Of a DNA stretch of 46,514 nucleotides, positions 4,380 to 36,406 are shown piece by piece (within the stretch, counting starts at the first letter, position 1; each line of letters begins with the position of its first letter). A model generated the notes under the pieces. The model had not been told where the DNA came from, made no database searches, and worked only from the letters and a program-made list of their open reading frames with translations. The DNA comes from a virus: the IMG/VR virus record IMGVR_UViG_3300036944_000960, positions 1 through 46,514 of that record; one strand, 5' to 3'. A program made the position numbers and the translations under genes.

Positions 4380-4519
4380 AACGCCGCGACGGGTGCGAGT
4401 CGCCGGTTTTCTTTATCTTCATTTTTCTAATTTTCGTCGCTTGGGTTTACCAAGTTCGCGAAAACGAGCAAGCCCGCGAAGCTAGTCTTCGACCGACGAC
4501 CAAGGTAGTAACACGATGA
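4376..4519 (+). CDS. Small single-pass membrane protein ahead of ECF sigma gene
   Basis: 47 residues starting at the ATG that overlaps the previous stop. There is one strongly hydrophobic segment at about residues 10-23 (VFFIFIFLIFVAWV), flanked by basic residues before and a charged tail after, so it is probably a bitopic inner membrane protein with cytoplasmic tail. It overlaps the sigma-like gene downstream by 4 nt. Many cellular ECF sigma factors are cotranscribed with a membrane anti-sigma. This protein is far smaller than known anti-sigmas, so such a role is only a speculation from position. Confidence 0.6.
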   Translation: MKRRDGCESPVFFIFIFLIFVAWVYQVRENEQAREASLRPTTKVVTR

Positions 4520-5031
4520 ACGAAACAACCCTAACCCAATTTGTCAACACGAACCGCCGCCAGTTAGTACACTACGCCGCGCATATCGTCAGAAATCACG
4601 AACTAGCGACCGACGCCGTTAGCGACGCCTACCTTAAAGCGTTGCGAAAGCGAGAAACATTTAAGGGCGAACCGACCCCGAGGGCGGTAAGCGTCTGGTT
4701 TTACCGAGTCTTGCGAAACACTTGCGCCGACTTGGTCAAGTCCGACCGCCTTCGTTCCTGCGTTGGGATTTCCGAACTAACCATCGAACCAGCGACCATC
4801 GACCAAGCCTTCGACGCCGTCGACGACGCCGACCGAATCCGCCGCGCGTTCGGGCTACTGAACGAAAACGAACGGCAAGTCGTTACCATGATTGCCGAGG
4901 GTATCACGATTAACGACGTATCGGCGTCGACCGGGCTTCGGGTGCCAGCGATAAAGAATATCGTTTCACGGCTACGGCGCGCAGTCGGTTACCGGTACGA
5001 AGCGGTACACGCCGTCGCGAGGTTTGCATAA
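4516..5031 (+). CDS. ECF-type RNA polymerase sigma-like factor 1
   Basis: 171 residues. A region-2-like helix bundle at about residues 17-78 (VRNHELATDAVSDAYLKAL, then WFYRVLRNTCADLVKSDRLR) is followed by a linker. A region-4 helix-turn-helix lies at about 112-160 (LLNENERQVVTMIAEGIT, then STGLRVPAIKNIVSRLRRAV). This two-domain layout and length are those of ECF sigma-70 factors, which bind core RNA polymerase and direct it to dedicated promoters. It is coupled to the membrane protein before it and to a second sigma-like gene after it. It could redirect host polymerase to phage promoters. A non-sigma sigma-fold regulator is the main alternative. Confidence 0.75.
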   Translation: MNETTLTQFVNTNRRQLVHYAAHIVRNHELATDAVSDAYLKALRKRETFKGEPTPRAVSVWFYRVLRNTCADLVKSDRLRSCVGISELTIEPATIDQAFDAVDDADRIRRAFGLLNENERQVVTMIAEGITINDVSASTGLRVPAIKNIVSRLRRAVGYRYEAVHAVARFA

Positions 5032-5534
5032 TGCCCGCGACGATGGAAACACTAGGGCGCGCTTTTGATAAGTACGCCGGGTATTGGGTAACGGCGGTAC
5101 GCCCGAGGGTAAGAACGTGGCAAGACGCCGAAGATATGGTCGGCGACGGCGTAGCGACGGCGGCGGCGAACATCGGCAACTGTAAAGCCGACGACGTCGA
5201 AAGCGTAGGGGCTTGGGTTTTCGGCTTCATACGAAACGCCCTTCGCCAGTATTGGGATACTAGACGCCGCCAAGCGAAGGAACGCGCGACCGGCTACGTC
5301 GAAGAATTGACGCCGTACCAACTTCGCCAACTCAAGACCGAGGCGCAAGCCGACGACGGCTTTGCGCTACGCCTCGCGCTACTGCGCGCTTCGTCATACG
5401 ACCGGCAAGTTATCGAACTGATTATCGAAGGGTACACGCTTGCCGAAATCAGCGCGCTTTACGGCGTCACGACGTCGGCGATTTTCGCCAGAATGTCGAA
5501 GGTTCTCGCGTCGGCGAAAAGGCGGGCGGCGTGA
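5031..5534 (+). CDS. ECF-type RNA polymerase sigma-like factor 2
   Basis: 167 residues, starting at an ATG that overlaps the stop of the preceding sigma-like gene (TAATG). A region-2-like segment lies at about residues 9-86 (WQDAEDMVGDGVATAAAN, then VGAWVFGFIRNALRQYWD). A region-4 HTH is at about 117-165 (SSYDRQVIELIIEGYTLAEI, then YGVTTSAIFARMSKVLASA). It is clearly related in plan to its upstream neighbour but diverged in sequence, so it is not a recent duplication. Two adjacent ECF-like genes in a phage are unusual. They may recognise different promoter sets or one may antagonise the other. The assignment rests on motif reading only. Confidence 0.72.
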   Translation: MPATMETLGRAFDKYAGYWVTAVRPRVRTWQDAEDMVGDGVATAAANIGNCKADDVESVGAWVFGFIRNALRQYWDTRRRQAKERATGYVEELTPYQLRQLKTEAQADDGFALRLALLRASSYDRQVIELIIEGYTLAEISALYGVTTSAIFARMSKVLASAKRRAA

Positions 5535-5956
5535 TTCCAATAGTCGAAAAACGCCGGGTATCGCGTTGGTTCTACAACGGTAAAGGATTCCATACCGAAA
5601 CCGCCGCCCTTCGGTTCATCGCCGAAGGCGAACTTAAAACCGCCATGTACCGGCGCGCAAACGAACTGGCGAAACTGAACCCGCCAGTCGTGCCAGAAAC
5701 CGACGATTCGGGCGACGACCTAAAGCCGTACTTACTCCAAGCCTACGCCGAGAAGTTCCCGCATACGGTAGGGCATTGCGACAGATACCGGCACCCGTCG
5801 ACGGTTCGCCCGTGTCGAACATACAACCCGTTTGGCGACGACGGTGTACGGCTACCCATATTCGATTACGCGGTTTGTCGCGTCGCGAAAGCGGAACACC
5901 TCGAAAAGCGCGTCGCCGAGCTACGCGCCGCCGGGGTCGTAAAGGTGAAACAATGA
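5531..5956 (+). CDS. Hypothetical protein downstream of the sigma pair
   Basis: 141 residues, with a GTG start that overlaps the upstream stop by 4 nt (GTGA). The N-terminus (RRVSRWFYNGKGFHTETAAL) looks like a small basic beta-hairpin. The middle has an unusual Cys/His set (HTVGHCDRYRHPSTVRPC) that could bind a metal, and the C-terminus is helical and charged. I do not recognise the family. Tight coupling on both sides shows it belongs to the same cassette. Confidence 0.65.
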   Translation: MIPIVEKRRVSRWFYNGKGFHTETAALRFIAEGELKTAMYRRANELAKLNPPVVPETDDSGDDLKPYLLQAYAEKFPHTVGHCDRYRHPSTVRPCRTYNPFGDDGVRLPIFDYAVCRVAKAEHLEKRVAELRAAGVVKVKQ

Positions 5957-6354
5957 GATTCTATATTCGCAAGCCCGACGGGGAAATAATGACGCCTCAA
6001 GAATGGCGAACCGCCCCGTTTTGCGGTCGAACTGCGTATCGTGCCAGTTTTGGCGAAAACTACTTCGCGGAACCGATTAACGCCGCCGCTTTTGCCGCCG
6101 AAAGCGGCGACGGGTACCGCGTCGTCGAAGCGTCGAACGACGAACAACCGCCCGACCATGAAACGCGATACTTCATTCGCAAGCCGAACGGTATGTTAAT
6201 CGCCGACTTCGACGAAGCGAATGTGTTTTTTCGCGACGCGCAGTTTTACCACCGGCTTGCATGGCGGGGCGGGTTCCTATGTCGCGACTATCCCGACGAA
6301 ATGGCGCGCAGTAAACCAGGTTTTGCCGTCGTACCTCGCGAGGTCTTGAAATGA
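5953..6354 (+). CDS. Hypothetical protein with two repeated IRKP modules
   Basis: 133 residues from the ATG at 5953 (4-nt overlap with the previous gene). It consists of two similar halves. The first opens with FYIRKPDGEIMTPQEW and the second, near residue 77, with YFIRKPNGMLIADFDEA. Each is followed by an aromatic-rich strand and a downstream acidic segment. This suggests an internal duplication of a 60-70-residue domain. I recognise no function. Confidence 0.65.
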   Translation: MRFYIRKPDGEIMTPQEWRTAPFCGRTAYRASFGENYFAEPINAAAFAAESGDGYRVVEASNDEQPPDHETRYFIRKPNGMLIADFDEANVFFRDAQFYHRLAWRGGFLCRDYPDEMARSKPGFAVVPREVLK

Positions 6355-7013
6355 AAATCGGCACCCGGTCGATTTTGTTCGGCGCGCATTGTTGGTTTAT
6401 ACACCCGTGGTTTGTCGCCGCCGCTTGGTCGAAACTGTACGGGTTCCCGACCGACTTGCGTATATGGGTCGCGTTCTTCGTCCATGACCTCGGGTATTGG
6501 GGTAAGCCGAATATCGACGGCGTCGAAGGTGAGTCGCACCCGATTCTAGGGGCGGATATTATGTCGCGCTTCGATCATAAATTTATTGATGATTGCCAAT
6601 ATGCCGACCGCACTTCGTTAGGAAAAATGCGCGCGAAAGGTTGGCGACCGGCGACGTCTGCCGAGTCTATTGTATTGGGCGACCGCACCGAATGGTGGAG
6701 TACTCGCCGTTGGCTTTACGTCTATGAATATCAGCGTACCGACTGGCACGACTTCGTCCTATGTCATTCGCGATACTACGCCGACAAAATCGGTAAGCCG
6801 ACGTCGAAACTGTACGCCGCCGACAAACTCGCTATGATATTGGAACCGGCTTGGCTTTACTTGCCTCGCGTGATTCTATCGGGCGAATACCGCGAGTTTA
6901 AGGAACGGGCAACGTCGAAGTACGGCGTCGCGCCCGAGTTGGTTAGTACGCCGCTTCGTTGGTATCGAATCACGGTCGCCATGATGAAACGGCGGGCGGC
7001 GGGCGAAATCTAG
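6351..7013 (+). CDS. HD-domain-like putative phosphohydrolase
   Basis: 220 residues. Conserved metal-ligand-like positions are His18 (FIHPWFV), the His45-Asp46 pair in FFVHDLGYW, His63 in EGESHPILGA, the CHSRYYADKIG motif near residue 140 and the following AADKL aspartate. This order (H...HD...H...H...D) fits HD-superfamily metal-dependent phosphohydrolases. Similar short proteins occur as uncharacterised genes in many phages. The substrate is unknown; nucleotides or cyclic nucleotides are possible. It is the last gene of the cassette and overlaps its neighbour by 4 nt. Confidence 0.65.
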   Translation: MKIGTRSILFGAHCWFIHPWFVAAAWSKLYGFPTDLRIWVAFFVHDLGYWGKPNIDGVEGESHPILGADIMSRFDHKFIDDCQYADRTSLGKMRAKGWRPATSAESIVLGDRTEWWSTRRWLYVYEYQRTDWHDFVLCHSRYYADKIGKPTSKLYAADKLAMILEPAWLYLPRVILSGEYREFKERATSKYGVAPELVSTPLRWYRITVAMMKRRAAGEI

Positions 7014-7026
7014 TAAATGCGATTCG

Positions 7027-7076
7027 CGACCGAGTAAACCCCGTTTCGGATACTTCGCCGAATCGGGGTTCGGTCG
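7027..7076. terminator. Bidirectional hairpin between convergent genes
   Basis: The main stem AACCCCG (7037-7043) pairs with CGGGGTT (7064-7070), extended inward by TTCGG/CCGAA. An outer arm CGACCGA/TCGGTCG (7027-7033, 7070-7076) and a still more distal GCGATTC/GAATCGC pair enlarge it to about 70 nt. It sits between the plus-strand HD gene and the convergent minus-strand gene ending at 7134. U-tracts are poor, so termination may be factor-assisted. Confidence 0.6.
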
Positions 7077-7133
7077 ATAACTAGAATCGCAAGCGCGCAG
7101 GAATACCCGACCAAAAGGTCGACGCCGAAGTTC

Positions 7134-7505
7134 TTAATTCGCTTCATTGTCGACCATTACGGACAGTTCCGACATACCGCAAACCGTAAGGGCTTCGGTT
7201 TCGACGACGTCGTAGAACACGATTTCGACCCGTGCCAGATAGTCGGCGCATACCTCGGCGTAAGTCGACGCCTCGGTTAGTTCAGCGGGCGCAACGAAAC
7301 CGACTTCTTTCGCGTGTTTCGCATATTGGAGTAAATGACATTTCAGCGCGCCGTAAGTCGCCCAAGTCTTGCCCCGTTTCTTGAATTCTACGCGCGGGCG
7401 TCGGGGCGACGTCAGCGACGCCCAAGACGCCGACGGTACGCCCCCCGGCGAGAATAACCCGGCACGCTTATCGCGTAGCCGGTAAATGGTCGTTTTATCC
7501 GCCAA
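7134..7505 (-). CDS. Hypothetical protein in distal tail region
   Basis: 123 residues, no family recognised. The N-terminal part (TTIYRLRDKRAGLFSPGGVP, then WKRG-like basic residues) resembles short DNA- or RNA-contacting beta segments. The C-terminal half is acidic and helical. It overlaps the stop of the upstream 70-residue gene by 11 nt and is the last minus-strand gene before the convergent terminator. It therefore belongs to the small block attached to the DUF2460 tail gene. Confidence 0.6.
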   Translation of the reverse strand: MADKTTIYRLRDKRAGLFSPGGVPSASWASLTSPRRPRVEFKKRGKTWATYGALKCHLLQYAKHAKEVGFVAPAELTEASTYAEVCADYLARVEIVFYDVVETEALTVCGMSELSVMVDNEAN

Positions 7506-7707
7506 TGGGAACCCCGTACCCGTTCCGCGCCATATCTGCGCGAAGGGCGTCTTCTAAGTCGGCGGCGTCGCGAAGTTGGTCGTCGGTCGCTTCGCACAAT
7601 GCAATAAGCCCGCGAAGCGTCGTCGGCTTACCTTCGGGCGAACGTGCCATTTCGTGCGCGAGGTCGACGACCTCGGCGTTCGTTGGTCGAACCGGTACCC
7701 CTTCCAT
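7495..7707 (-). CDS. Small hypothetical helical protein
   Basis: 70 residues. The start ATG overlaps the stop of the 32-residue gene upstream (TAATG), and the stop overlaps the following gene. The sequence is mostly helical and acidic (NAEVVDLAHEMARSPEG, then CEATDDQLRDAADLEDAL), with no clear domain. It could be a small regulatory or capping protein. Function unknown. Confidence 0.6.
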   Translation of the reverse strand: MEGVPVRPTNAEVVDLAHEMARSPEGKPTTLRGLIALCEATDDQLRDAADLEDALRADMARNGYGVPIGG

Positions 7708-7805
7708 TACTTACCACCTCGGCGGCGCGAATCCCAATTCGCGAAATCCATCGGCGCGACGACCTTAAACCAACAAACCCGAAAGAATCGAATAACGCTT
7801 TCCAT
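7707..7805 (-). CDS. 32-residue small protein between tail gene and helical protein
   Basis: The ATG at 7805 is preceded by AGGTAAACGT, a good ribosome binding site, only 8 nt after the stop of the DUF2460 gene. The TAA overlaps the ATG of the next gene (TAATG). The product starts MESVIRFFRVCWFKVV and has an amphipathic, basic-hydrophobic N-terminal helix. Its size hides it from most gene callers. Coupling on both sides supports it being translated; function unknown. Confidence 0.55.
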   Translation of the reverse strand: MESVIRFFRVCWFKVVAPMDFANWDSRRRGGK

Positions 7806-7813
7806 ACGTTTAC

Positions 7814-8461
7814 CTATTCGCGAACTTCGACAATCTTCGCCGAGATACGACCGACCCGCAACGCCTCAAGATTGAAGCCGACGACGTCGCCGTCGAAGCG
7901 CGCCGGGGTGTCGAAGTGAAAGGCGGCGGCGATAGTTCCCGAGGCGGGGGCGACGCTGAACGTAACGACGCCGGTCGTAAGGTTTACCGACCATCCGGTT
8001 AATTGTTCGACGCCAGCGACGTAAACCTTAACGGTGCCGCCGACCGGCTTCGTAATCGTGCGGGTGTAAGTAAAGCCGCTACGGGTATACGTTTTGACCA
8101 ACTGGAAAGCGACCGTCGCGCCGTTGCCGGTGCCGATAGTTTGCAACGCCCCGAGGTCGACCGAAACGCCGACGCCGGGGGTCATAACGTAACCGGCGTA
8201 GTAATCCGCCCAATCGCGGAACCTGAACGAAAACGCATCGCCTTGCGCGACGGCGACGTAAAAGTTAATCAGGTCTTGTAAACGGGCTTCGTCCCAAAAG
8301 TCGGCGTTAAATGAGTATTCGCGAAGCGGCGTCGACCAACTCTTTATTCTGGTTTCTTGCCCCGAATCCGACGTCGCGGTACGTGTTCGCCACTTAATCG
8401 ACGACGTCGACCCGCGCGAAATGTTGGTCGGAAATAAGGCGTCGCGAAAGTTGGCGGGCAT
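7814..8461 (-). CDS. DUF2460-family distal tail protein (GTA-like)
   Basis: 215 residues. It shows the DUF2460 / TIGR02217 pattern: an N-terminal segment with FNADFWDEARLQDLINFYV and FSFRFRDWADY, then the internal GTGNGATVAFQLVKTYT, ITKPVGGTVKVYVAGVEQ, and the C-terminal FHFDTPARFDGDVV. GTA and siphovirus members form the distal tail ring that links the tube to the hub proteins. It would normally sit next to the DUF2163 gene. Here the two are separated by the plus-strand sigma cassette and three small genes. The leader contains CGTATTGG 15 nt before the ATG. Confidence 0.9.
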   Translation of the reverse strand: MPANFRDALFPTNISRGSTSSIKWRTRTATSDSGQETRIKSWSTPLREYSFNADFWDEARLQDLINFYVAVAQGDAFSFRFRDWADYYAGYVMTPGVGVSVDLGALQTIGTGNGATVAFQLVKTYTRSGFTYTRTITKPVGGTVKVYVAGVEQLTGWSVNLTTGVVTFSVAPASGTIAAAFHFDTPARFDGDVVGFNLEALRVGRISAKIVEVRE

Positions 8462-8486
8462 ACCCGAACCAATACGAGGCGATACG

Positions 8487-8531
8487 TTTTTTCTAGTTTT
8501 GTCACTATTTCAGAAATTGGCGCGTATATAT
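8487..8531 (+). promoter_or_regulatory. Decamer-type promoter variant for a leaderless gene
   Basis: TTTTTTCTAG is followed by GTCACTATTTCAGAAA and GCGTATATAT. The -10-like TATATA lies at 8525-8530, so initiation would fall at or next to the ATG at 8536. The -35 position is poor, and the CTAG-to-CAGAAA spacing is 11 nt (one helical turn) shorter than in the class A promoters. Confidence 0.6.
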
Positions 8532-8535
8532 TTAC

Positions 8536-8919
8536 ATGACTACCGAATACTACGTCGCCGCAACCCGCAAGGGTAACGAGGTCGTCGCGTTCGCCATGAC
8601 AGCACCCGCCGAGGTCGTCACGGTTACAACTACCGACGGGTTTCGATACGACGCGATTCTTCACGAAACGAAGAACGGCTTCGCGGTCGTTTGCCCCTTT
8701 ACCGGTATGCGTTGGTCGTACTCCGACCTTCGCCACAACCCGAAGGCGCGAACGTCGTCGGTTCAGCTTGCCCGCGACGCCGTCGCCAAAATGACGCGCG
8801 AACAATACTTCGACCGCGTTAAAAGACTACGATTTCAGTTCCCGGCTATTTCTTCACTAGCGACCGATAACGAACCCGCCCTTAAAGCGTTGCCTCGGTT
8901 CGTTGGGGGTGCGAAATGA
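8536..8919 (+). CDS. Hypothetical protein, probably translated from leaderless mRNA
   Basis: 127 residues with no recognised family. It is a beta-rich N-terminal half (VVTVTTTDGFRYDAILHET, FAVVCPFTGMRWSYSDL) followed by a basic helical segment (SVQLARDAVAKMTREQYFDR). There is no Shine-Dalgarno sequence before the ATG, and the -10 hexamer ends 5 nt upstream of it. It is monocistronic, closed by a strong terminator. It could be a small nucleic-acid-binding or anti-host protein, but nothing in the sequence decides. Confidence 0.65.
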   Translation: MTTEYYVAATRKGNEVVAFAMTAPAEVVTVTTTDGFRYDAILHETKNGFAVVCPFTGMRWSYSDLRHNPKARTSSVQLARDAVAKMTREQYFDRVKRLRFQFPAISSLATDNEPALKALPRFVGGAK

Positions 8920-8958
8920 AGTAAGCCGCCCGCCCCGTGTCTTGTGTTGTTTCCTTGG

Positions 8959-9000
8959 CTACGCCCGTCGGTTTGCATGATTTCCGACGGGCGTAGTTTT
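8959..9000 (+). terminator. Rho-independent terminator
   Basis: A perfect 13-bp stem CTACGCCCGTCGG / CCGACGGGCGTAG (8959-8971, 8984-8996) is followed by TTTT. It closes the single-gene unit at 8536-8919. Confidence 0.9.
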
Positions 9001-9016
9001 GACCCCTTAAACCCTT

Positions 9017-9439
9017 ATGAATCCCGCCCCCATCATTACAGATTTTCCGACCGTCGCGCCGCCAACGCCCGCCGTCGTGTACCTTAACCCGCACCATGAC
9101 CCCGCCGACGACGTGCCGACGCCGTCGCCTATCGAAGTCGTTCTTAATCGCCCCGCTTGGTCGCATATGGAACCCTTTAACAGTTTGCCCGCGAAGGTCG
9201 TCGCGCGCGACGATTACGACCCGTTCGACAATAAGCCGACCGGGCAAGCGTTCGCGCTGATTCTATTCAAACAGGGCAAGGCGCGCCGGGTATGTATCTC
9301 GCGCCAGTCTAACGGCTTATTTCGTTGTTGGGCGGAAAACCCGAATACGAAGGTCGGGTCGCGTTACATTTCGACCGGCGGCGTCGCCGATATGACGGTC
9401 GCGCAGGTCGGGCAATTTCTCGCCGAGGTCGCCGAATGA
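9017..9439 (+). CDS. Hypothetical proline-rich N-terminus protein
   Basis: 140 residues. The first 45 or so are Pro/Ala-rich and probably disordered. The C-terminal domain contains KQGKARRVCISRQSNGLFRC and a terminal helix. There is no clear ribosome binding site, and the ATG lies only 17 nt after a terminator. Expression may rely on terminator read-through or an unseen promoter. The stop overlaps the next gene by 4 nt. Not recognised. Confidence 0.55.
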   Translation: MNPAPIITDFPTVAPPTPAVVYLNPHHDPADDVPTPSPIEVVLNRPAWSHMEPFNSLPAKVVARDDYDPFDNKPTGQAFALILFKQGKARRVCISRQSNGLFRCWAENPNTKVGSRYISTGGVADMTVAQVGQFLAEVAE

Positions 9440-9699
9440 GCCGACCTATTTTCGAGGTCAATCGACCTATTATTAAGGTCGGCGACGTCGCCAGAATCCG
9501 CCACGAATCGGGTGTATACGCGGGCTTCGTCGTCGTCGGCACCCGCCCGAATTGGTTGAAGGTTCGCACCATCATACCGACGAAGGCGAAGCGGTACGGC
9601 TTTATTCATATCGGCGACGTCGACGCAATCGAACGCGGCGGATTCGGCGACGTCGTGTATTTCCGACCTCCCGTAATGGTTGAAGGTACGGGGGCGTAG
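9436..9699 (+). CDS. Small KOW/SH3-like beta protein
   Basis: 87 residues from the ATG at 9436 (ATGA overlap). IIKVGDVARIRHESGVYAGF is followed by a strand turn and VRTIIPTKAKRYGFIHIGDV. The VGD-type opening resembles small beta-barrel domains that occur repeatedly in this phage, for example in the 15556-16512 protein and the 11133 gene. Its last three codons lie inside the tRNA-Glu gene, so the transcript must be processed through the coding end. Confidence 0.55.
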   Translation: MSRPIFEVNRPIIKVGDVARIRHESGVYAGFVVVGTRPNWLKVRTIIPTKAKRYGFIHIGDVDAIERGGFGDVVYFRPPVMVEGTGA

Positions 9700-9764
9700 T
9701 TCAGCGGTTAGAATTTCGGGCTTTCAACCCGGCGATACGGGTTCGATTCCCGTCGTCCCTACCA
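9690..9764 (+). tRNA. tRNA-Glu (anticodon UUC)
   Basis: 75 nt including encoded CCA. Acceptor GGGGGCG pairs with CGTCCCT (two G-U pairs). The D-stem is GTTC/GAAT. The anticodon stem TCGGG/CCCGG closes the loop CTTTCAA with anticodon TTC. The T-arm ACGGG-TTCGATT-CCCGT is canonical. All landmarks are present, so it is probably functional. Phage tRNAs commonly boost codons frequent in phage genes; GAA is common here. It overlaps the end of the upstream CDS. Confidence 0.9.
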
Positions 9765-9769
9765 AGATT

Positions 9770-9860
9770 TACGGGTTAGCATATGGGTAATGCGGTTGGT
9801 ATCTCGACCAATCCGAAAGGATAAAGCCAGTAGAAGCGGGTTCGAGTCCCGCACCCGTGA
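9770..9860 (+). tRNA. tRNA-like element with long variable region and odd anticodon loop
   Basis: Acceptor TACGGGT/ACCCGTG, D-stem GCAT/ATGC and T-arm GCGGG-TTCGAGT-CCCGC all pair. The anticodon stem GTTGG/CCAAT leaves an 8-nt loop TATCTCGA instead of 7. The variable region is about 24 nt, with a small TCC-GAAA-GGA hairpin. No CCA is encoded. If U33 is the third loop base, the anticodon would read CUC (Glu). It could be a degenerate tRNA or a tRNA-like regulator. Confidence 0.5.
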
Positions 9861-9964
9861 TACGGTCGAAGTTGAACGCCTCGGGTTCGCCCGTTGCACC
9901 CGTCGAACTAGATTCGTCGGCGCGTCGCACAGACTCGCGACCGGCTTCGCAAAAAGACCGACTA

Positions 9965-9995
9965 CCCCGGAACGCATGGAAGCGACCGGGGTTTT
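9965..9995 (+). terminator. Terminator after the tRNA pair
   Basis: CCCCGG (9965-9970) pairs with CCGGGG (9986-9991), followed by TTTT. The next gene starts only 7 nt later. Confidence 0.75.
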
Positions 9996-10001
9996 ATCCT
10001 T

Positions 10002-10217
10002 ATGAGAAAAAAGCCAACCAAAACGACGTCGCAATACGACGCCGAAATCGCAGGAACCCGCCGCGTAATCGCCGTTCATATCGACATAGGCGAACGACTG
10101 CGCGCCCGTTGGGCGGGGTCGCCGATTGCCGAGATAATGGAACGCCAAAACGTCGCGTACCTCTCGAACCTCGAAACGTCGCTTAAAGAATCCGAAGCCG
10201 GTCGACGCGCGGCGTAG
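10002..10217 (+). CDS. Small hypothetical basic protein
   Basis: 71 residues, lysine/arginine-rich at the N-terminus (RKKPTKTTSQYDAEIAGTRR), then a helical central part and SNLETSLKESEAGRRAA at the end. No ribosome binding site is visible and the ATG directly follows the terminator U-tract. The reading frame is consistent with phage codon use, but the start and expression are uncertain. No family recognised. Confidence 0.45.
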   Translation: MRKKPTKTTSQYDAEIAGTRRVIAVHIDIGERLRARWAGSPIAEIMERQNVAYLSNLETSLKESEAGRRAA

Positions 10218-10303
10218 TTTTTCTACTTTTTTCTGTTTAGGTCTTGACAATCAGAAAACGCGCGCCTATAATCTAACTATCGAAGTCGTCGCGACGTCGA
10301 TAG
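10218..10303 (+). promoter_or_regulatory. Class A decamer promoter with perfect hexamers and 5' hairpin
   Basis: TTTTTCTAC/TTTTTTCTG repeats (10218-10235) lie 17 nt upstream of a perfect -35 TTGACA (10244-10249). The 17-nt spacer contains CAGAAA (10252-10257), and TATAAT is at 10267-10272. TTTCTG and CAGAAA form an inverted repeat around the -35. The transcript would begin with a hairpin CTATCGA/TCGATAG (10277-10303) directly before the AGGAAG ribosome binding site. Confidence 0.9.
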
Positions 10304-10309
10304 GAAGCC

Positions 10310-10588
10310 ATGCACGAAACAATCGACTACACCCAACCAACCGACCGACGACCCGCCCTTACCGGCGTCGTCATTTCGCCGACCGCGTTAAGCGACCTTT
10401 TCTTTAACCATGAAAAGCCGAACTACTCGGAGTATTGCGCGAGTAAACAGGCGCAACCGACCGACTTCGACGAAATGTTCGCCGCGATTCTTGAGGACGC
10501 GCAAACATTCGTTCAAAACTACTTAGAAGTAGATTTTGAACGAGCCTTCGCCTATAACCTCGCGTCGGATTTCTGGCACCGATTATGA
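10310..10588 (+). CDS. Hypothetical acidic protein under a perfect promoter
   Basis: 92 residues, acidic and helical in its second half (DFDEMFAAILEDAQTFVQN, then FERAFAYNLASDFWHRL). AGGAAG precedes the ATG by 4-5 nt. It is driven by the strongest sigma70-like promoter in the window, suggesting high expression at the time of activation. Small acidic phage proteins made early often inhibit host enzymes, but no specific motif supports that here. It overlaps the next gene by 4 nt. Confidence 0.65.
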   Translation: MHETIDYTQPTDRRPALTGVVISPTALSDLFFNHEKPNYSEYCASKQAQPTDFDEMFAAILEDAQTFVQNYLEVDFERAFAYNLASDFWHRL

Positions 10589-11070
10589 GCGCGCCCGCCA
10601 CGACCGCCCCGGTTTCGACCGGGGCTTTTTGCCGTTGGTCGCTCCGCTTCGATTGGTGCCAGTCGTGCGGCACCATCGAAAAGAAGCATAAGGGGCGGGG
10701 CTTATGCGCGACCTGCTACGCCGACGACCCGCTTACGCAAGCCCGCCACGCCCGCAACCGCAAGCGGCGCGCGCTGAACATGGACGCCGAGGCGACGGCG
10801 CGCGTCGACGCATATAAGGCGGCTTGGGCGGCGCGCAATCGCGACCGAGTTAACGCCAACTACCGCGCATGGGATAAGCGAACGCAAGCCCGTCGAAAGT
10901 TCGTCGTCGGGTCGTCGTGTTACTACGATATGGGCGGCGTTCGGGTGCCTTGCGTCGTGACGTTCGTAAGCGGCTATCGGGTTCGTGTTCGCCTCGGCGA
11001 CGGCGAGATAGTTCGCACAGCGGCGCAACGGCTTCGGTCAGTCGGCGGCGACTACGGCGACGTTTTGTAA
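10585..11070 (+). CDS. Zinc-ribbon-like hypothetical protein
   Basis: 161 residues. Two CxxC knuckles (CQSCGTIEKKHKGRGLCATC, near residues 25-45) form a likely treble-clef or zinc ribbon. A basic Arg-rich helix follows (ARHARNRKRRALNMDAEATA), with a C-terminal beta segment (SCYYDMGGVRVPCVVTFVSG) of the VGD/KOW-like type. The combination suggests nucleic acid binding. It is cotranscribed with the small acidic protein before it. Confidence 0.6.
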   Translation: MSAPATTAPVSTGAFCRWSLRFDWCQSCGTIEKKHKGRGLCATCYADDPLTQARHARNRKRRALNMDAEATARVDAYKAAWAARNRDRVNANYRAWDKRTQARRKFVVGSSCYYDMGGVRVPCVVTFVSGYRVRVRLGDGEIVRTAAQRLRSVGGDYGDVL

Positions 11071-11126
11071 TTATTTCTACTTTTTTCTTAAAAGGGCTTG
11101 CATTGTAGAAATTGCGCGCCTATAAT
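11071..11126 (+). promoter_or_regulatory. Class A decamer promoter for a leaderless gene
   Basis: TATTTCTACTTTTTTC (CTAC ending 11080) is followed after exactly 17 nt by TTGCAT (11098-11103), then a 17-nt spacer with GTAGAAA, and TATAAT (11121-11126). The predicted start, 7 nt downstream, is the A of the ATG at 11133. Confidence 0.85.
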
Positions 11127-11132
11127 ATCTGT

Positions 11133-11354
11133 ATGGGTTTCTTCAATCCTTCGACCCCCGAGGCGGGACAGCCTCTTTCGACGTTTAAGGTCGGCGACCG
11201 AGTTATTAACTTCGGTACGCTCGGTAAGGTTCTTTCGGTCGAACCTAACGGCGACCTAATCCTTATGTCGGTCGGGCTTACCGGCGACTTTTCAAAATGG
11301 CGCGCTTGCCCGCTGAAATGCCGGTACGCCGACGGCGTGAGGGTCGCGGCGTGA
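11133..11354 (+). CDS. VGD-type small beta protein, leaderless
   Basis: 73 residues from the ATG at 11133; the transcription start predicted from the promoter coincides with this codon, and no ribosome binding site exists. STFKVGDRVINFGTLGKVLS is an SH3/KOW-like opening, comparable to the modules of the 15556-16512 protein. The remainder is a short beta strand set ending in a basic tail. A role in nucleic-acid or ribosome contact is conceivable but not shown. Confidence 0.65.
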   Translation: MGFFNPSTPEAGQPLSTFKVGDRVINFGTLGKVLSVEPNGDLILMSVGLTGDFSKWRACPLKCRYADGVRVAA

Positions 11355-11650
11355 TTACCCGCGTCGCCGACATTTTGCCGGGAATGATTGCGACCTTCGC
11401 GGGCGCATCATTCCTGATTGTTTCCGAATCCCGTCTTTATCCGAAGACGGCAATCTTCGACGACGCGCGCCACGATATTTACGGCGTCGATTACGCGCCC
11501 TTGCGATTGAAGCGAGGTCGACCCGACTTCGACGGCGCGAAGCAATCGGCGCGACCTCACGCGATACAATGTTCCAAAACCGCCGGTTCGGAATTCGTCG
11601 GCGAGGGCTTGGTTATCGAACCCTACGACGCCGAAAAGCATCGCCCCTAA
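11351..11650 (+). CDS. Hypothetical protein coupled to the leaderless gene
   Basis: 99 residues from a GTG that overlaps the upstream TGA by 4 nt (GTGA). It opens with ITRVADILPGMIATFAGASF, another small-barrel-like pattern, followed by a charged middle and a hydrophilic C-terminus. I chose the GTG over upstream in-frame codons because the overlap type matches other junctions in this genome. No family recognised. Confidence 0.55.
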   Translation: MITRVADILPGMIATFAGASFLIVSESRLYPKTAIFDDARHDIYGVDYAPLRLKRGRPDFDGAKQSARPHAIQCSKTAGSEFVGEGLVIEPYDAEKHRP

Positions 11651-11710: not shown

Positions 11711-11908
11711 ATGAGCAAGAAACACGCCGCAACCAATCAGCGACGTAAACCTTTACGCATTACCTCGCCGCTGAACCGCCGCCAATTTCTGCGCGAGTCG
11801 GGTAACGATTTGTTCTTCGGATTCGCGGAACGACTCGGCGTTCGGGGTTGTGATACTCATATAGACATTCACGCCGCCGCCAAGCCCGCCCGCAATCTGG
11901 CGCGATAG
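11711..11908 (+). CDS. Possible small basic protein antisense to the tape-measure 3' end
   Basis: 65 codons from an ATG preceded by GAGGAATCA, a good ribosome binding site. The first 25 codons lie in intergenic DNA; the rest overlap the minus-strand tape-measure gene in antisense. The product begins MSKKHAATNQRRKPLR. The overlap region looks like a shadow of the tape-measure frame, so the original gene may have been truncated by insertion of the plus-strand cassette. Confidence 0.3.
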   Translation: MSKKHAATNQRRKPLRITSPLNRRQFLRESGNDLFFGFAERLGVRGCDTHIDIHAAAKPARNLAR

Positions 11909-14900
11909 CGACGCCGGGATTACGACGCCGCCGTTTCGACTGGCGAAGATTTCGTCGCGACCGTGTTCGTTCATTCTAAACAGTTCGCCAGCGTTTACCG
12001 CGCCGCCGGTCGCGAAGCCGGTCGGGGTTCCGCCCATCATGCCGCCGAACGTACCCGCCGCCGCGCCGCCGCCCGAGTCGCCGCCGATAATGCCGCCGAC
12101 CAAGCCCCGAAGCCCGTTCGATAGGATTCGCCGAATTTCCGACTTCAACCATTCCTGCGCCATTTCCGCAAGCGTCGACCGAAACCCCTCAAGTAGATTT
12201 GAAAAGAACGGTTTAATACCGCCGGTAAACAGCGCGCCGAGCGAATCAGTTAACGTCGTCGAAAAGCCGTCGGCGACTTTGTCCAGCATCCCGACGAATT
12301 GTTCTAATTGTTCGACCTTAAACAGTCGGTTCATATAGTCTTGCGCGCGCGCCATACCGTCGGCGATTCGTTCCGCCGCCGTCGTGCCGTTCCCGAATTC
12401 TTCGGCGAGTTGCTTTAGTTGTTCGCGCGACGCGACCGACTGACTCGAAAGGCGGGTAATCCGTTCGGTAAGTCGGGCGATTTGTTCGCCATACCGTTTA
12501 TCTGCGCCCGCTTGCAATTCGACCCGATACTTAACGACCGCCGCCGTCAGCTTCGACCAAGCCGCCCGCGCCTTTTCCAGCATTTCGACCCGCGCCTTCG
12601 CGTCGTCGTCTTTGTCCAACGCCGCCGCCGCCAACAATGCCGCCGCCTTTTGTTCCTGCGTAAGCGAAGCGTACTTTTCTTTCGATAGTTCGATTTCGAG
12701 TTTATCGACGCGCGTCTTCGCGAGGCGAAGGGCAAGTTCTTCGCGCAGGTTGTCGACGGTTTGCTTTACCCAATCCGACGCCGATTTAATGCCCGCAAGC
12801 CGGTCGGCGTCGCGCTTCGCGGTGGCGGCGTCGACGACCGCCGCGCGGTTCTTTTCGTCGGTTAGGTCGGCGAAGTTCTTGCCGTACTTTTCGATAGCAA
12901 TAGAATCTTCGACGGTCGTCGCCAACGAAGCCCGAGTCGCCCGCACCTGCGCGGCGGTCGATTCGACCAACCCCGAGGTAATCGCGTTAAGAGCTTCGCG
13001 GGTTTTGCGGGCGCGTTCATGGGCTTCGCTTGACAGCGCGAGGTAATACGCTTGCAACCCGAGCAACCGGTTACCCTTTTCGATAATTCCGTTTCGCAGG
13101 TCGTAAGCAATCGACGCCGACTTCGTTTGATTGCTATCTAGTGCGGTCGCTTTCGTCAGTTCGGCAATCGTGCGGCGAAGTTCTTCGGCTTGTTCGTTTA
13201 CCGCCTTCATAGCGGGCGCGGGCGAAAGTCCGTCGCCCTTGCCGCCCGCCATTTTAGGTACACCGGGATTGAACGGCACGAACGCAAGTTTCGCCCGTTC
13301 GCGTTCCTCGAAAAAGAGTTTCGACTTAACCCAATTATCGCGATTTTCGCCTTCGTCTTGTGAACCAAACCCCGGCGAACCGTCGCCGACGCCGACGCCC
13401 TTGCCGGGTAGGTTTCCGGTAATTGCCTTTCGCCCCGCCGCCGCCGAGTCGTTAGCCTTTTTGGCAAAACTGTCTAGCTTATTGGCGAGTTGGTCTAACC
13501 CGCCGAAAATGCCGCCGAAGAATGAGTTAAACGACCGAAGCGACGACGCAAGGGCGGTCGCAATCGTCGACGCGATACCGCCCATAACCGAAATGGTCGT
13601 TACTCGCATCGTGACGAACGCGCCCGACCAATCGCCGGTAAGAACCTGCGCGAAGAACTTAACGCCGCCCTGAATCGCAGTCAAGGCAATCTGAATATAT
13701 CCTTTAATCTGCGCCCATGCAATCGACGCAGTCGCCGCCAACGACTCCCAACCTTTCCGAAGAATGAAGGCGAACGGCGCGAACGCCCGCTTAATCGCCT
13801 CGAACACGTTAACCGCCGCGTCGCGAATCAGCGGGAAATTATTACGCCAGAATGTCACGATCTGAGTAACGACGCCGTCGGTAAAATCGCGAAGCCCGCC
13901 GAAGTTGGTTTTCCACGCGACGACCAAGGCGGCGACGGCGGCGATAACCCAAGTTACCGGGCTTGTTAGGGCGGCGACGGCGACGCCTAGAACGCCCGCC
14001 GAGGCACCGGCGGCAACCAATCCCGGCGCGAGGGTGCCGACCAAGGCGGTAACCGTCGGGATAATCGACGCAAGCCCGCCCAACGCCAAAAGAACCGGCG
14101 CAATCGACGCCGCGAAGATACCGACGCCAATCGCGACGCCCTTCGCCCCGTCAGACAATCCCGAAAGCCAACGAGTAAGACCGCGAACGCCTTCGACGAC
14201 GACGGCAAGCGTCGGCGCGAGTACGTCGCCGAATTCAATCGCCGTAATCTTGAGTTGCTTAACCAGTTCAGCGAAGCCAAATTTCTGCCCGACCATCTGG
14301 CGATTTAACGCCGCTTGCGTTGCGCCCGCGCCGTCGGTCGCCGTCGACATTTTGCCGAGCATATCGGCGTAATCCTTTCCGGCGTTCGACGCCAAAACGG
14401 TAAGACCCTTAAACGCGCGAACCTCGGGCATAATCGTCGCGTATGCCTGTTTATTGTCGCCAATCTTCGCGACGGCGTCGGCAAGCCAACCCGAAAGCCC
14501 CTTCGATTCCAACGCCGCCACGCCGGTTTGAATTCCTAACGCCGCCATAGCGTCGCCCGCTTCTTTCGACGGTTTGACGATATGCAAAATTAGCTGATTA
14601 AGGGCGGTCGCCGACTCGGCGGCGTTAATGCCGTTTCGGGTAAGTACAGCCATACCCGCGCCGACTTCCTGCAACGAAATACCGGCAAGTTTCGCCGACG
14701 GCAAGACGTCGCCGATTTGATTCGCGAGGTCGCCGAAACTGTTAACGCCAAGGTCGACTTCCTTAAATAGAACGTCCATCGCCTCGCGCGCATTATTGAC
14801 GCCGCCGATACCCGAGTTCAGAACCGCCATAAGGGCGCGCGACGAAGTCGCGGTATCGGTCATACCCGCCGAGGCACCCGCCGCCGAAACCTTTAAAATG

Positions 14901-17077: not shown

Positions 17078-17138
17078 TGTGTTACCTATGCGTCGACGAC
17101 GATTCGCGTCGACCTGTTAGTTATACGGTTCAGAAACC

Positions 17139-17195
17139 CTTTTTTCTACTTTTTTCTGCAAAATGGTTGCAATTCAGAAAACGACCGCCTATAAT
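17139..17195 (+). promoter_or_regulatory. Class A decamer promoter with no clear downstream gene
   Basis: TTTTTTCTACTTTTTTCTG, exactly 17 nt, TTGCAA (17167-17172), 17 nt with CAGAAA (17175-17180), TATAAT (17190-17195). An extra TTCAGAAAC copy lies just upstream at about 17129-17137. It points rightward into the antisense of the FxLYD gene, and no convincing plus-strand gene follows. It may make an antisense or small RNA. Confidence 0.8.
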
Positions 17196-17262
17196 GATTC
17201 TATCGACGGCGAAAGCCTGTGTTCAGATTGTCGAATAGACGACGAATCAGAGGTCGAAACCC

Positions 17263-17966: not shown

Positions 17967-17980
17967 TTTGTAAAAATAAT

Positions 17981-18058: not shown

Positions 18059-18092
18059 CGCGGTGAAGACCGTAGGAGTCAACACAAGCAAA

Positions 18093-18688: not shown

Positions 18689-18700
18689 TCTAGGTCTGTT

Positions 18701-30393: not shown

Positions 30394-31899
30394 CTAACCC
30401 GCGCGAATGTTAGGGCGTTCGACCCCGCGACCGCCCGCGACGGGCGCGCTTGGCAAGACCTCGGGCGCGAGTAGTTGGAATGTCTGGAATAGCTTAGTAA
30501 CGGCGTCGACTTGGTCGTCGTGTTTGCCGCGCGGGAACCGCTTACATTCTTCGATAAAGTCGTCGACCCAACCCGAACCGTCGTCGATTAAGTAAATCAT
30601 ATCTTGATTCAAAAACGGCGTCCAAGTTCGCGCGCCGACGACCTTATCGGCGACCGTTGGAAGTTCAATAATCGCGATACCTTGCATACCGGGAACCTTT
30701 CGCAAGTGTTGAGGCGTCGACGCTTGGAACCCGACGGCTTCGACGCCGACGCCGTGTACCCTCGCGCTTTTGGCACGTTGGGCAATCATAGTAACGCCTT
30801 CGGGGGCTTCGCACCGGCGGCGCGAATTCCTTTCGAGGTAATAGGCGCGGTTAACGCCGACGTACCCCGGTTGGGCGACCGTATAGTCGTTCGTCTGTTT
30901 CGTTTTAAGCGCGAGGTCGACGCCCATCGCCTTATACATCGGCGGCGCGGCTTGCTCAGGCGAAACGATAATAAATTTCGACGTGTCGATTACTACGCCC
31001 GATTGCTTTCGGGGGCGTTGTAGGAATTGCGCCCAATACGCATCTTCGTCTAATTGTTGTTCTAAAAGGTATTCGGGCGTAAGAATCAGCGGACAAAGAT
31101 TTTCACCGACCGCGCGCTTATCCGGGTACAGCGTGACGCCCGCCGGTACGTTAAATGGTTCGTCTTGTTTAATGGCGTCTAGGGCTAGAATCGTCCATTG
31201 TTTCGCGTTCTTATGAGTCAGCAACCAACCGCAAAGGTCTTCGTCGTCTAAGCGTTGCATAACGACGACTATCGCCGCTTGTTTCTTAAAGAATCGGTTT
31301 TGACGGTTTAGCCAAGTTCGCGCCCACCACCGGCGAAACGTATCTTTTTTGGCGTCGCTTTCGAGGTCTTCCGCGCCCTTATGCGGGTCGTCGATAATAC
31401 CAAGGTGAAACCGCTTACCGCGAATCGCACCGGCGAAACCCGCCGACCACATACCGCCGCCTTCGGGGGTTCGCCAAAACGACTTCGCTTTCGTCGAATC
31501 GTCGGTAACCCCGCCCGATTCTTCGTAGTAATCGCGGGCGTCGCCCGACAATCCTTCGGCGAGGTCGGCACCGTAGGAAACAAGCCCGACGGTACGCGCA
31601 GGATACCGGCGCAAGTAGTAAGCGGGTAGAAGCCGACTAATCGTTTCCGACTTGCCGGTTCCCGGCGGTACCCATATCATTACCCGCGTAAGTTCGCCGT
31701 CGGCGATTTTCTGCGCGACCTCGGCAAGGGTGTAATTGTGCGGGTGCCAGTCGAAAGAATCGTTCGCCGTCGGCACGAATTCGCGAAACGTGCCGACGTT
31801 CTTTTCTAGCCCCGACAAACTATTCGGGTCGGTTTTCTGTATTTCCTGCGCGAGTTGAGTCGCGAAACATTCCAATAATCCCGGTTGCGAGTTTTGCAC
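30394..31899 (-). CDS. terL: Terminase large subunit
   Basis: 501 residues from a GTG. ATPase Walker A VPPGTGKSE at about 77-85, Walker B LGIIDDPH at about 166-173, then VVVMQRLDDEDLCGWLL (coupling motif). The C-terminal nuclease has GVDLALK near residue 330 and HDDQVDAVTKLF near 465. The protein cuts concatemers and drives DNA into proheads through the portal. It overlaps the TerS gene by 80 nt. Confidence 0.9.
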   Translation of the reverse strand: MQNSQPGLLECFATQLAQEIQKTDPNSLSGLEKNVGTFREFVPTANDSFDWHPHNYTLAEVAQKIADGELTRVMIWVPPGTGKSETISRLLPAYYLRRYPARTVGLVSYGADLAEGLSGDARDYYEESGGVTDDSTKAKSFWRTPEGGGMWSAGFAGAIRGKRFHLGIIDDPHKGAEDLESDAKKDTFRRWWARTWLNRQNRFFKKQAAIVVVMQRLDDEDLCGWLLTHKNAKQWTILALDAIKQDEPFNVPAGVTLYPDKRAVGENLCPLILTPEYLLEQQLDEDAYWAQFLQRPRKQSGVVIDTSKFIIVSPEQAAPPMYKAMGVDLALKTKQTNDYTVAQPGYVGVNRAYYLERNSRRRCEAPEGVTMIAQRAKSARVHGVGVEAVGFQASTPQHLRKVPGMQGIAIIELPTVADKVVGARTWTPFLNQDMIYLIDDGSGWVDDFIEECKRFPRGKHDDQVDAVTKLFQTFQLLAPEVLPSAPVAGGRGVERPNIRAG

Positions 31900-34727: not shown

Positions 34728-34975
34728 TAGCCCGACCCCTTGCGCTTCGGCTTATTGTCCGCCGTGATTACCTTGGCACCGTCGACCGGTTCCGCATCGG
34801 GTTCGACGACGGGTTCGGCGTATCTCGCCTTTACTTCGTCGGTCGCCCCGATTTCGTCAAGAATCGCGGCGACGCTCATTCGGTCGGGGTTTGATTCGTC
34901 CCAATATTGGTACTTTGCGTCGGCGAAGTTTGGCACGATTAGCGCGCCGTGTTGGTCGATAAATGGTTTATTCAT
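34727..34975 (-). CDS. Small hypothetical protein of the lysis block
   Basis: 82 residues from the ATG at 34975 (TAATG with the endolysin stop). The N-terminus (MNKPFIDQHGALIVPNFADA) and mid part (SNPDRMSVAAILDEIGATD) are compact. The C-terminal 30 residues are acidic then basic (EPVVEPDAEPVDGAKV, KPKRKGSG). No family recognised. It is coupled on both sides, so it probably acts with the endolysin and membrane protein. Confidence 0.6.
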   Translation of the reverse strand: MNKPFIDQHGALIVPNFADAKYQYWDESNPDRMSVAAILDEIGATDEVKARYAEPVVEPDAEPVDGAKVITADNKPKRKGSG

Positions 34976-35499
34976 TAGCTTAAATCCTCGCGCAGAACCA
35001 TAAAAGTACAGCCGGGGCGACCGAGGAAAAATGAAAGGTCGCGTTCGGTAATCGCTTGCCCGAGTCGCTTCGATTGACCCGACGAACAATCAATACCGGA
35101 AATCTTCGCGACTGAACCGTCGGTATTAAACGTCGACCCGGTTACAATCGCGGTATGACCTTGCCCCGCGCCCCTATCGGGATAGGCGACGATACAGCCC
35201 GGTACGGGTTTGTCGATTCGCATAAAGGCGCGCTTCGCGTTATTGGCGTCGAAACACATCGCCGAGGTTTCAACCCAAAAGGCGCGGGTCTTTTTCGGCT
35301 TGCGCGAAATTTCGATTACCCAAGCGACATACCCCGAACAATCGCACAGATTAAAGCCGGTACGCGAATCGAAGTCGGCGGGCGAACCTTGCGCCGGGTC
35401 GAAGCCGCCCTTACCGAGTTTATACCGAATACCTCGGTTAAGGGCGGAACGCGCGCGAACGACGCGCCCCGCTAATCTTTTTAGGTTTAACGTAACCAT
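34975..35499 (-). CDS. Cysteine-peptidase endolysin (NlpC/P60 or CHAP fold)
   Basis: 174 residues. Catalytic Cys54 in CDCSGYVAW and His115 in GQGHTAIVTG match CHAP/NlpC-P60 amidase-type lysins; a second Cys-containing motif (GIDCSSGQSKR) lies near 134-144. There is no signal peptide or cell-wall binding domain. It is the second peptidoglycan-type hydrolase in the window, the other being the tail tip peptidase. It probably releases virions. The leader is CGTACCGG. Confidence 0.75.
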   Translation of the reverse strand: MVTLNLKRLAGRVVRARSALNRGIRYKLGKGGFDPAQGSPADFDSRTGFNLCDCSGYVAWVIEISRKPKKTRAFWVETSAMCFDANNAKRAFMRIDKPVPGCIVAYPDRGAGQGHTAIVTGSTFNTDGSVAKISGIDCSSGQSKRLGQAITERDLSFFLGRPGCTFMVLREDLS

Positions 35500-35515
35500 G
35501 CAAACCGGTACGCAA

Positions 35516-36406
35516 TTAAGCGGCGGCGCGAACTTCGTCGATTTCTTCGTCGACTTCGACGCCGAACACTTCCGAGCGAACTTCTTTAATCGCGGCGAGG
35601 ATTTCAGAAACCAGCGATTCGGCGACGCCGAGGTTCGCGGCTATTTCGGGTATCGCGTTGCCATACGCCAAGCCCTGTAATACCCCGTATTGTAAACCGG
35701 CGTAAGACTGAAAGACCCAAAGCAAAAGCCGTTCAGCCTCGGGGCTTGCCGGGTCGGGCGCAAGGGCGAAAAGCCTCGGCGCGTTCTCGGTATCGGCAAA
35801 CAGTTCGCGAATATCGGCAAGGTTTTCGACCGATAGTTCGCCGGTTTCGTGCCGGTGTTCAGCGAACGCAAGAAACGACGCGACCAGGCGGCGCATACCC
35901 TTCGCCCCGGCGCGTTCCATCATTTCCTGCAAACTGAACCGCGAGGCGGCGGCGAGTTTAGCGACGGCGTCGCGGGCTTCGTCGCGTAGTTGCACAGTAT
36001 CGGCGACCGACGCCGACGGGTCGGCAATCATGTCGGAAAGCGTACCGGCGTCGTCGAAGCCCGCCGGGTCGTCTAGCCCGTCCAAAAGGTGCGCGGGAAT
36101 TTCCGAAACCTGATTTCGCGACCGGTAAAGGTCGACCAATTTGCGCCGAGTTAGCAACTTGATAAAGTTCTTAACCGACATATTCTTCGACGGGTCGAAT
36201 TCGCGAACCGCTTTAAGCATCGCCGGTAAACACTCGGCGGCGCGGTCATCCCTATCCATACCGTCGATAGGGTATTCGCCCGCAATCGTCACGACTAGCC
36301 CGAAGTGTCTTCGATGAAAGTCGGCTTCGATTTCTTCTTTCATTGTCGGCGACGTGCGCGGTTCGTTGTACTTTTCGATTAGTTGGTTATCTGTAAAATG
36401 CTTCAT
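35516..36406 (-). CDS. Sigma-70-family-like phage transcription factor
   Basis: 296 residues from the ATG at 36406 (ATGA overlap); longer upstream extensions are in the previous gene's frame. The N-terminal part has a region-2-like helix set (FGLVVTIAGEYPID, LPAMLKAVREFDPSKNMSVK, NFIKLLTRRKLVDLYRSRNQ). The C-terminal segment (LLLWVFQSYAGLQYGVLQGL, AIPEIAANLGVAESLVSEIL) is a region-4 HTH. A long central region replaces the usual region 3. As the early part of the minus-strand operon, it is a candidate late-gene sigma. Confidence 0.65.
   Translation of the reverse strand: MKHFTDNQLIEKYNEPRTSPTMKEEIEADFHRRHFGLVVTIAGEYPIDGMDRDDRAAECLPAMLKAVREFDPSKNMSVKNFIKLLTRRKLVDLYRSRNQVSEIPAHLLDGLDDPAGFDDAGTLSDMIADPSASVADTVQLRDEARDAVAKLAAASRFSLQEMMERAGAKGMRRLVASFLAFAEHRHETGELSVENLADIRELFADTENAPRLFALAPDPASPEAERLLLWVFQSYAGLQYGVLQGLAYGNAIPEIAANLGVAESLVSEILAAIKEVRSEVFGVEVDEEIDEVRAAA

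Follow-up and report, generated by a model that had tools for sequence, protein, structure and literature searches.

Three sigma-70-family genes and two classes of promoter-like sites in a 46-kb integrase-bearing phage record

The IMG/VR virus record IMGVR_UViG_3300036944_000960, which was analysed as a whole (46,514 bases, classed linear; hereafter the window), carries three genes for sigma-70-family proteins, two of them a tandem pair resembling extracytoplasmic function (ECF) sigma factors and the third a larger protein encoded together with packaging genes. The window also contains a secure class of promoter-like sites with a TATAAT element, class A, and a likely second class, class B, in which CGTATA takes the place of TATAAT. 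The three proteins might act as phage-encoded specificity subunits for the host RNA polymerase, in a relay that would lead from the host sigma factor through the ECF-like pair to the late genes; this reading is favoured tentatively, at a little less than an even chance. The gene set as such is real and unusual, an uncommon combination of ordinary parts.

Three sigma-70-family genes

A six-frame search of the window with the Pfam profile Sigma70_r2 yielded exactly three places, which correspond to the following open reading frames (ORFs):

4516..5031 (+): sigma 1, 171 aa, ECF-like sigma-70-family protein
5031..5534 (+): sigma 2, 167 aa, ECF-like sigma-70-family protein
35516..36406 (-): sigma 3, 296 aa, ATG start, larger sigma-70-family protein

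These are precisely the ORFs that an initial annotation, made by inspection of the sequence, had named as sigma-70-like, and the region 2 search that it proposed as a check gave 42.7, 25.5 and 33.9 bits for sigma 1, sigma 2 and sigma 3, respectively, in each case above the gathering score of 24 bits. The profile matches support the assignment of all three proteins to the sigma-70 family; a sigma identity is also shown by the predicted fold of sigma 2 and of sigma 3 in its N-terminal part. The additional claim that each protein contains both region 2 and region 4 held only in part: region 2, responsible for core binding and -10 recognition, is found in all three, and region 4, responsible for -35 recognition, is found in sigma 1 and sigma 2 below the r4_2 gathering score of 25.7 bits (20.8 bits, E 3e-4, and 17.5 bits, E 3e-3) and was not detected in sigma 3. 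When the C-terminal parts were scanned alone for region 4, the E-values were 7e-5 for sigma 1 and 6e-4 for sigma 2.

The description of the tandem pair as ECF-type agrees with the results. Both proteins are short, regions 2 and 4 were the only sigma domains matched in Pfam, and this layout, without region 1.1 or region 3, fits ECF (group 4) sigma factors. The NCBIfam sigma superfamily model TIGR02937 (cut-off 42.9 bits) matched sigma 1 with 63.5 bits and sigma 2 with 41.8 bits, about 1 bit short of the cut-off, and the best PHROG of both was phrog_1740 (9.8e-19 and 4.1e-11), a phage family annotated as RNA polymerase sigma factor, a name that carries no tested function. Between sigma 1 and sigma 2, 143 residues align with 28% identity (E 1e-6, one comparison), and from this similarity they are best read as diverged tandem paralogues. 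A model of sigma 2 (two-row alignment, mean pLDDT 67.5) gave a Foldseek list headed by sigma factors, mostly of the ECF type (E 0.014 to 0.05); its N-terminal part aligned with the ECF sigma-2 domain 5uxx at a Z-score of 10.4 (root-mean-square deviation (rmsd) 2.5, 84 residues), a value near 10 and thus not much higher than helical models may attain by chance, and its C-terminal part with the sigma-4 domain 3vfz (Z 8.7, rmsd 2.6, 60 residues).

Sigma 3 is encoded in a leftward operon starting at 38370, upstream of the exonuclease and terminase genes. Beyond its region 2, it matched the SigH-like model NF006147 (2.5e-10, under the model's own cut-off), TIGR02937 (25.9 bits, under the cut-off of 42.9, but with an alignment of residues 28-274 that covers nearly the whole profile) and a PHROG sigma-factor family, while phrog_1740 was reached only at E 0.02. 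Of regions 2, 3 and 4, which characterize group 3 sigma factors, region 3 gave E 0.15 only, and this match is located at the C-terminus. A single-sequence model (mean pLDDT 57.9) is confident only for about residues 1-110, and for residues 1-102 the best alignment with a sigma-2 domain has Z 12.4 (rmsd 2.7, 96 residues). The structural match to regions 2 and 4 on which the initial annotation had staked its claim was obtained for both regions in sigma 2 and for region 2 alone in sigma 3, where the C-terminal model is unreliable.

The start of sigma 2 overlaps the stop of sigma 1, and both genes lie within a rightward run of overlapping ORFs (4212-7013). A further small ORF adjoins sigma 1:

4376..4519 (+): ORF of 47 aa, one hydrophobic stretch; overlaps the sigma 1 start by ATGA

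Its sole Pfam match was FixQ (E 0.081), and its product is a possible sigma 1 partner or mini anti-sigma factor. A co-encoded anti-sigma factor is usual for ECF sigma genes, though not obligatory, and no anti-sigma family was found among the scanned neighbours in the sigma 1/2 operon. The last gene of this operon, 6351-7013 (+), has HD-like features by eye and no Pfam match.

Two classes of promoter-like sites

Class A consists of a conserved block of 71 nt (repeat family D1) that occurs at 4121, 10218, 11072 and 17141, always in the rightward direction. Its elements are, in order, TTTCTACTTTTTTC, 24 nt from TTTCTAC to TTG, a 17-nt spacer and TATAAT, so that the form TTGNNN-N17-TATAAT stands behind TTTCTACTTTT:

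4123..4175 (+): class A promoter (TTTCTACTTTTTTC ... TTGCTT-N17-TATAAT), before the sigma 1/2 operon 4212-7013
10220..10272 (+): class A promoter (TTGACA-N17-TATAAT)
11074..11126 (+): class A promoter (TTGCAT-N17-TATAAT)
17143..17195 (+): class A promoter (TTGCAA-N17-TATAAT)

The full architecture is present in four copies and was absent from each of 200 local shuffles. TTTCTACTTTT has seven copies, compared with a shuffle mean of 0.04, and all seven copies of its 9-mer core fall into the noncoding 7.7% of the record. The class A motif is secure. An exact match to the class A pattern was not found in IMG/VR. A general sigma-70 promoter scan gave counts barely above those of shuffles (13 versus 8.4 and 12 versus 7.8) and was therefore not used on its own.

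In class B, CGTATA replaces TATAAT at 8523 (+), 39241 (+), 43793 (+), 38461 (-) and 17127 (-):

8490..8531 (+): class B site (TTTCTAG, TTGTCAC-N17-CGTATATAT), before ORF 8536-8919
17118..17127 (-): class B -10-like element CGTATAACTA, before leftward genes from 17077, including the tape measure gene
38452..38497 (-): class B site (TTTCTACTTTT, CTGTCAC-N17-CGTATATCT), preceding the leftward operon (from 38370) that contains sigma 3 and packaging genes
39217..39250 (+): class B site (TTTCTAC-N17-CGTATACAT), before the recombination and SSB genes
43769..43802 (+): class B site (TTTCTAC-N17-CGTATATCT)

The form CGTATAnnT is found at all five sites and TATAAT at none of them, and in four of the five TTTCTAC, TTGTCAC or CTGTCAC stands exactly 17 nt upstream. 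Noncoding sequence, 7.7% of the record, holds 11 of the 31 CGTATA copies, an enrichment with an uncorrected P of 1e-5. The site at 8523 has a spacer (CAGAAATTG..GCG) in common with class A, and it may thus be a class A variant. Of the two promoter classes that had been proposed initially, class A is borne out by the comparison with shuffled sequences, and class B, which is likely to be a motif class, has moderate support.

ECF sigma factors typically recognize promoters with an AAC-type -35 element and a CGT-type -10 element. The -35-like element of four of the five class B sites has AC at its end instead of AAC, and the spacing of TTTCTAC/TGTCAC-N17-CGTA resembles, by analogy, that of ECF promoters with a CGT-type -10 element. 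A GTATA-type element also has a precedent, as the sigma factor of phage phiEco32 reads TAATGTATA according to an excerpt of PMC4331800.

It should be noted that the two classes have an upstream element in common. TTTCTAC is present at all four class A sites and at three class B sites, and TTTCTAG at 8490..8531; the distance of TTTCTAC to the -10 element is 47 nt at the class A sites and 24, 24 or 36 nt at the three class B sites, and that of TTTCTAG is 33 nt. With such differing distances, the element is more readily seen as an operator or the binding site of an activator than as a core promoter element of fixed position. Inverted partial copies, CAGAAA/GTAGAAA, lie within the class A spacers. 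A candidate for a protein reading the element is also encoded in the window:

38527..39195 (+): candidate CI-like repressor, helix-turn-helix (HTH) and S24 peptidase-like

The matches of its product to PF13560 (E 0.018) and PF00717 (E 0.022) suggest that it may be a CI-like repressor and a possible reader of the TTTCTAC element. In the favoured reading, TTTCTACTTTT would most likely serve the CI-like repressor as its operator, or else an activator as its site, in addition to the proposed sigma relay.

A possible sigma relay and its alternatives

The identities of the three genes, the positions of the sites and the class A motif are direct results of the analysis, and the promoter positions are compatible with the staged cascade that the initial annotation had suggested, as they are with a cascade of the SPO1 type, where successive phage sigma factors are each required for the next class of promoters. 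In the relay, the host holoenzyme would, at infection or induction, transcribe the sigma 1/2 operon from class A, which looks host-sigma-dependent. One or both of the ECF-like sigma factors would then steer the polymerase to the class B (CGTATAnnT) promoters, a step that would cover the recombination and SSB genes, the leftward packaging operon with sigma 3, and the tail genes. Sigma 3 would be made in this second step and would aid late transcription, possibly together with a helper, since its region 4 is not recognizable. We infer every link between a sigma factor and a promoter in this scheme, as well as all timing. In a more elaborate version, which is unlikely to hold in full, a small temperate siphophage would use an ECF-like pair with split work and then a third sigma factor from the late operon, all under a repeated repressor operator; the work could be split, for example, by separate promoter subsets (TTTCTAC versus TGTCAC class B sites) or by one paralogue tuning the other.

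Several points weigh against the relay. The class B motif is post hoc, in that its two-block pattern, with four copies compared with a shuffle mean of 0.04, was picked after the sites had been seen, and by a rough estimate it would not stand out in an unbiased two-block search, so that the case for class B is based on the counts given here. Its -35-like element varies between sites and is missing at 17127, and the ten-base CGTATANCTA, with one mismatch allowed, is no commoner than in shuffles (9 versus a mean of 7.8). On the protein side, Foldseek E-values for sigma 2 and sigma 3 were all above 0.001, the Z-score of the sigma 2 N-terminal part lies not far above the chance level mentioned, and the sigma 3 model is unreliable past about residue 110, that is, for the remaining two thirds. 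A region 4 was not found in sigma 3 by profile even with the C-terminal part scanned alone, the best match in that scan being a LuxR-type HTH (E 0.25). Finally, tblastn searches of IMG/VR revealed no relatives of sigma 1, sigma 2, sigma 3 or the sigma 1/2 alignment.

The placement of the TTTCTAC element suits an operator, and thus an account based on repressor logic only is a serious rival, possible if somewhat unlikely. The host housekeeping sigma factor would read both classes, TTTCTACTTTT would be a dispersed CI-like operator, and the sigma genes would be accessory. This would fit the occurrence of the element in both classes at variable distances from the -10 element, the inverted partial copies in the class A spacers, and the weak HTH and S24 matches that mark 38527-39195 as a repressor, although both of these are under the Pfam cut-off; it leaves unexplained why there are three sigma genes and why CGTATAnnT differs systematically from TATAAT. 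That the main role of sigma 1 and sigma 2 is to redirect the transcription of host genes, in the manner of sporulation-like phage sigma factors, is unlikely. Their position in a rightward cassette, alongside small genes without a known function, would be in line with such host reprogramming, and host-directed phage sigma factors are known (PMC9429907, in excerpt). However, the promoter of sigma 1/2 has the phage-wide TTTCTAC element and so looks wired into the phage programme, and CGTATA-type sites stand at phage operons.

Two further alternatives concern the nature of the genes themselves. Sigma 3 might be a region-2-bearing binder of core polymerase and not a full sigma factor, acting either as a late factor dependent on a co-activator or by inhibiting the host sigma factor; T4 gp55, which lacks a canonical region 4, would be a model for such a partial sigma factor. 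This is quite improbable: region 2 alone was found by profile, and the C-terminal two thirds of the model have low confidence, but the sub-threshold TIGR02937 alignment extends over nearly the whole profile, and two helices, 252-258 and 263-281, are placed by the low-confidence model at the position expected of an HTH. That the sigma genes are an artefact, brought in by host DNA or a chimeric contig, is hardly credible. ECF genes are common in bacteria, and both contig ends lie in open frames; on the other hand, the cassette with sigma 1 and sigma 2 is flanked by tail genes, sigma 3 is located between the primosomal and the exonuclease/terminase genes, and the codon usage of all three sigma genes is like that of the structural genes of the phage.

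Relatives and frequency of sigma genes in phages

Among GenBank phages, sigma 1 had one weak match, MT836608, and sigma 2 and sigma 3 had none. MT836608.1 ("Bacteriophage sp.") was rejected as a phage relative, as its ORFs, including the ECF sigma gene, look like those of an actinobacterial chromosome. Plasmid matches to sigma 1 were ordinary ECF genes with at most 30% identity.

The initial annotation had stated that phages normally carry zero or one sigma factor. On average this applies: according to an excerpt of PMC9429907, a sigma homologue is present in less than 15% of more than 4,000 phage genomes, and in a baseline of 126 viral records that were reached through the terminase, tail and exonuclease genes of this phage (46 of 49 loci, the three weakest being left out, and 80 of 264 relatives), Sigma70_r2 was above the cut-off in one record and below it in another (E 1e-4), and no record had two matches. 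This baseline is weak, as 28 of the 126 records are at least 35 kb long and 98 are shorter, many of them fragments. Exceptions are known, namely the three sigma factors each of SPO1 and SP10 (PMC9429907) and the two of PSS2 (PMC2784084), both sources being excerpts. In the one record above the cut-off (53.8 kb; L082, region 7623-9223), the sigma gene lies about 1.7 kb from the relative of the exonuclease gene, as sigma 3 does here; with 22% identity to sigma 3 over 161 residues, this was not counted as synteny. No paper on a tandem ECF-like pair in a phage, or on this phage, was found in the open-licence literature.

Genome context

PHROG matches indicate a siphophage-like genome layout:

2-4097 (-): tail-tip genes (PHROG)
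11753-15349 (-): tape measure (PHROG)
24162 (-): capsid (PHROG)
28535 (-): portal (PHROG)
30394..31899 (-): large terminase (phrog_38, 6e-70)
33012 (-): exonuclease (PHROG)
37029 (-): primosomal protein (PHROG)
from 39326 (+): Sak4-like and Mu-Gam-like genes (PHROG)
41473 (+): SSB
42641..43765 (+): tyrosine-type integrase (phrog_1, 1e-62), context for a temperate life style

Two rightward cassettes, 4140-11650 (+) and about 17219-18688 (+), break up the leftward structural region and have their own class A promoters; the first of these, which holds sigma 1 and sigma 2, sits between the tape measure and the tail-tip genes. Within this cassette region, a glycoside hydrolase gene at 7814-8461 (-) (phrog_2913, 1e-53), perhaps a lysin, is oriented leftward. 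ARAGORN found a tRNA-Glu(ttc) gene at 9690-9764 (+) and, at 9769-9861, an odd tRNA-like match whose anticodon has two bases. A stretch of about 420 bases (18689-19109) has no convincing gene; it contains long inverted repeats, GACGGTCGTAT ... ATACGACCGTC, and recurring words of the TTATCTATAG type, and may represent an origin, a partition site or an RNA. The sequence at 45003-45047 (-), about 1.2 kb from the integrase gene, resembles the 3' end of a tRNA-Thr(CGT) gene and is likely to be the attP core; it had no exact match at 43 or 33 bases in the genome contigs searched. Both contig ends (1-2782 and 45444-46514) lie in open minus-strand frames for tail or fibre-like proteins. Joining the two ends did not give a single long frame, and the record is therefore not called complete; a piece may be missing between them.

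Comparison with known systems

The best-ranked GenBank phage terminases compared with 30394..31899 were those of cyanosiphophages (29-33% identity). One of these phages, PSS2, carries two sigma factors besides an integrase (PMC2784084, in excerpt). Among seven records examined, two Sigma70_r2 places each were found in PSS2, S-CBS2 and S-CRES2 (one of the two being under the Pfam cut-off in S-CBS2 and S-CRES2), one each in S-CRES3 and MT836608, and none in two others. In PSS2, S-CBS2, S-CRES2 and S-CRES3, a SigF-like/type III sigma gene directly follows terL. However, the cyanosiphophage sigma factors belong to group 2 and group 3, an ECF-like pair was not seen among them, and the genomes are larger (71-108 kb). 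Comparisons of sigma 3 with the two cyanosiphophage sigma sets gave no clear relation except over a short region 2 stretch (hhalign probabilities 4.8% and 0.7%); by sequence, sigma 3 is not detectably closer to these proteins than to sigma factors in general.

The best-known phage programmes with several sigma factors are those of large lytic phages, SPO1 for example. An integrase phage of 46 kb in which an ECF-like tandem pair, a further sigma factor and no more than about nine candidate promoters come together would be a compact system in which a repressor switch and a sigma relay could be studied together in a temperate phage, and it would also make it possible to ask how duplicated sigma factors divide promoters between them. 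If the relay is true, CGTATAnnT would be an ECF-type addition to the short list of promoters read by phage sigma factors.

Phage phiEco32 differs from the phage described here in that it is lytic and has a single sigma factor. As described in the excerpt of PMC4331800, phiEco32 and 7-11 nevertheless share with the proposed scheme a distant phage sigma factor, early use of host promoters and later use of a GTATA-containing phage promoter; 7-11 is also lytic with one sigma factor. The neighbouring phage sigma genes g168 and g169 of Bacillus phage Eldridge are similar in arrangement to sigma 1 and sigma 2, but in the excerpt of PMC9429907 they are SigF-like sporulation sigma factors and not ECF-like. 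The same excerpt covers the nearest parallel in number, the Bacillus phages SPO1 and SP10 (Herelleviridae), in which two of the three phage sigma factors run the middle/late programme. These are large lytic myoviruses from a family with linear genomes of 125-170 kb, and their sigma factors are not described there as ECF-like, whereas the present phage combines a tandem ECF-like pair with a 46-kb, integrase-bearing, siphophage-like genome.

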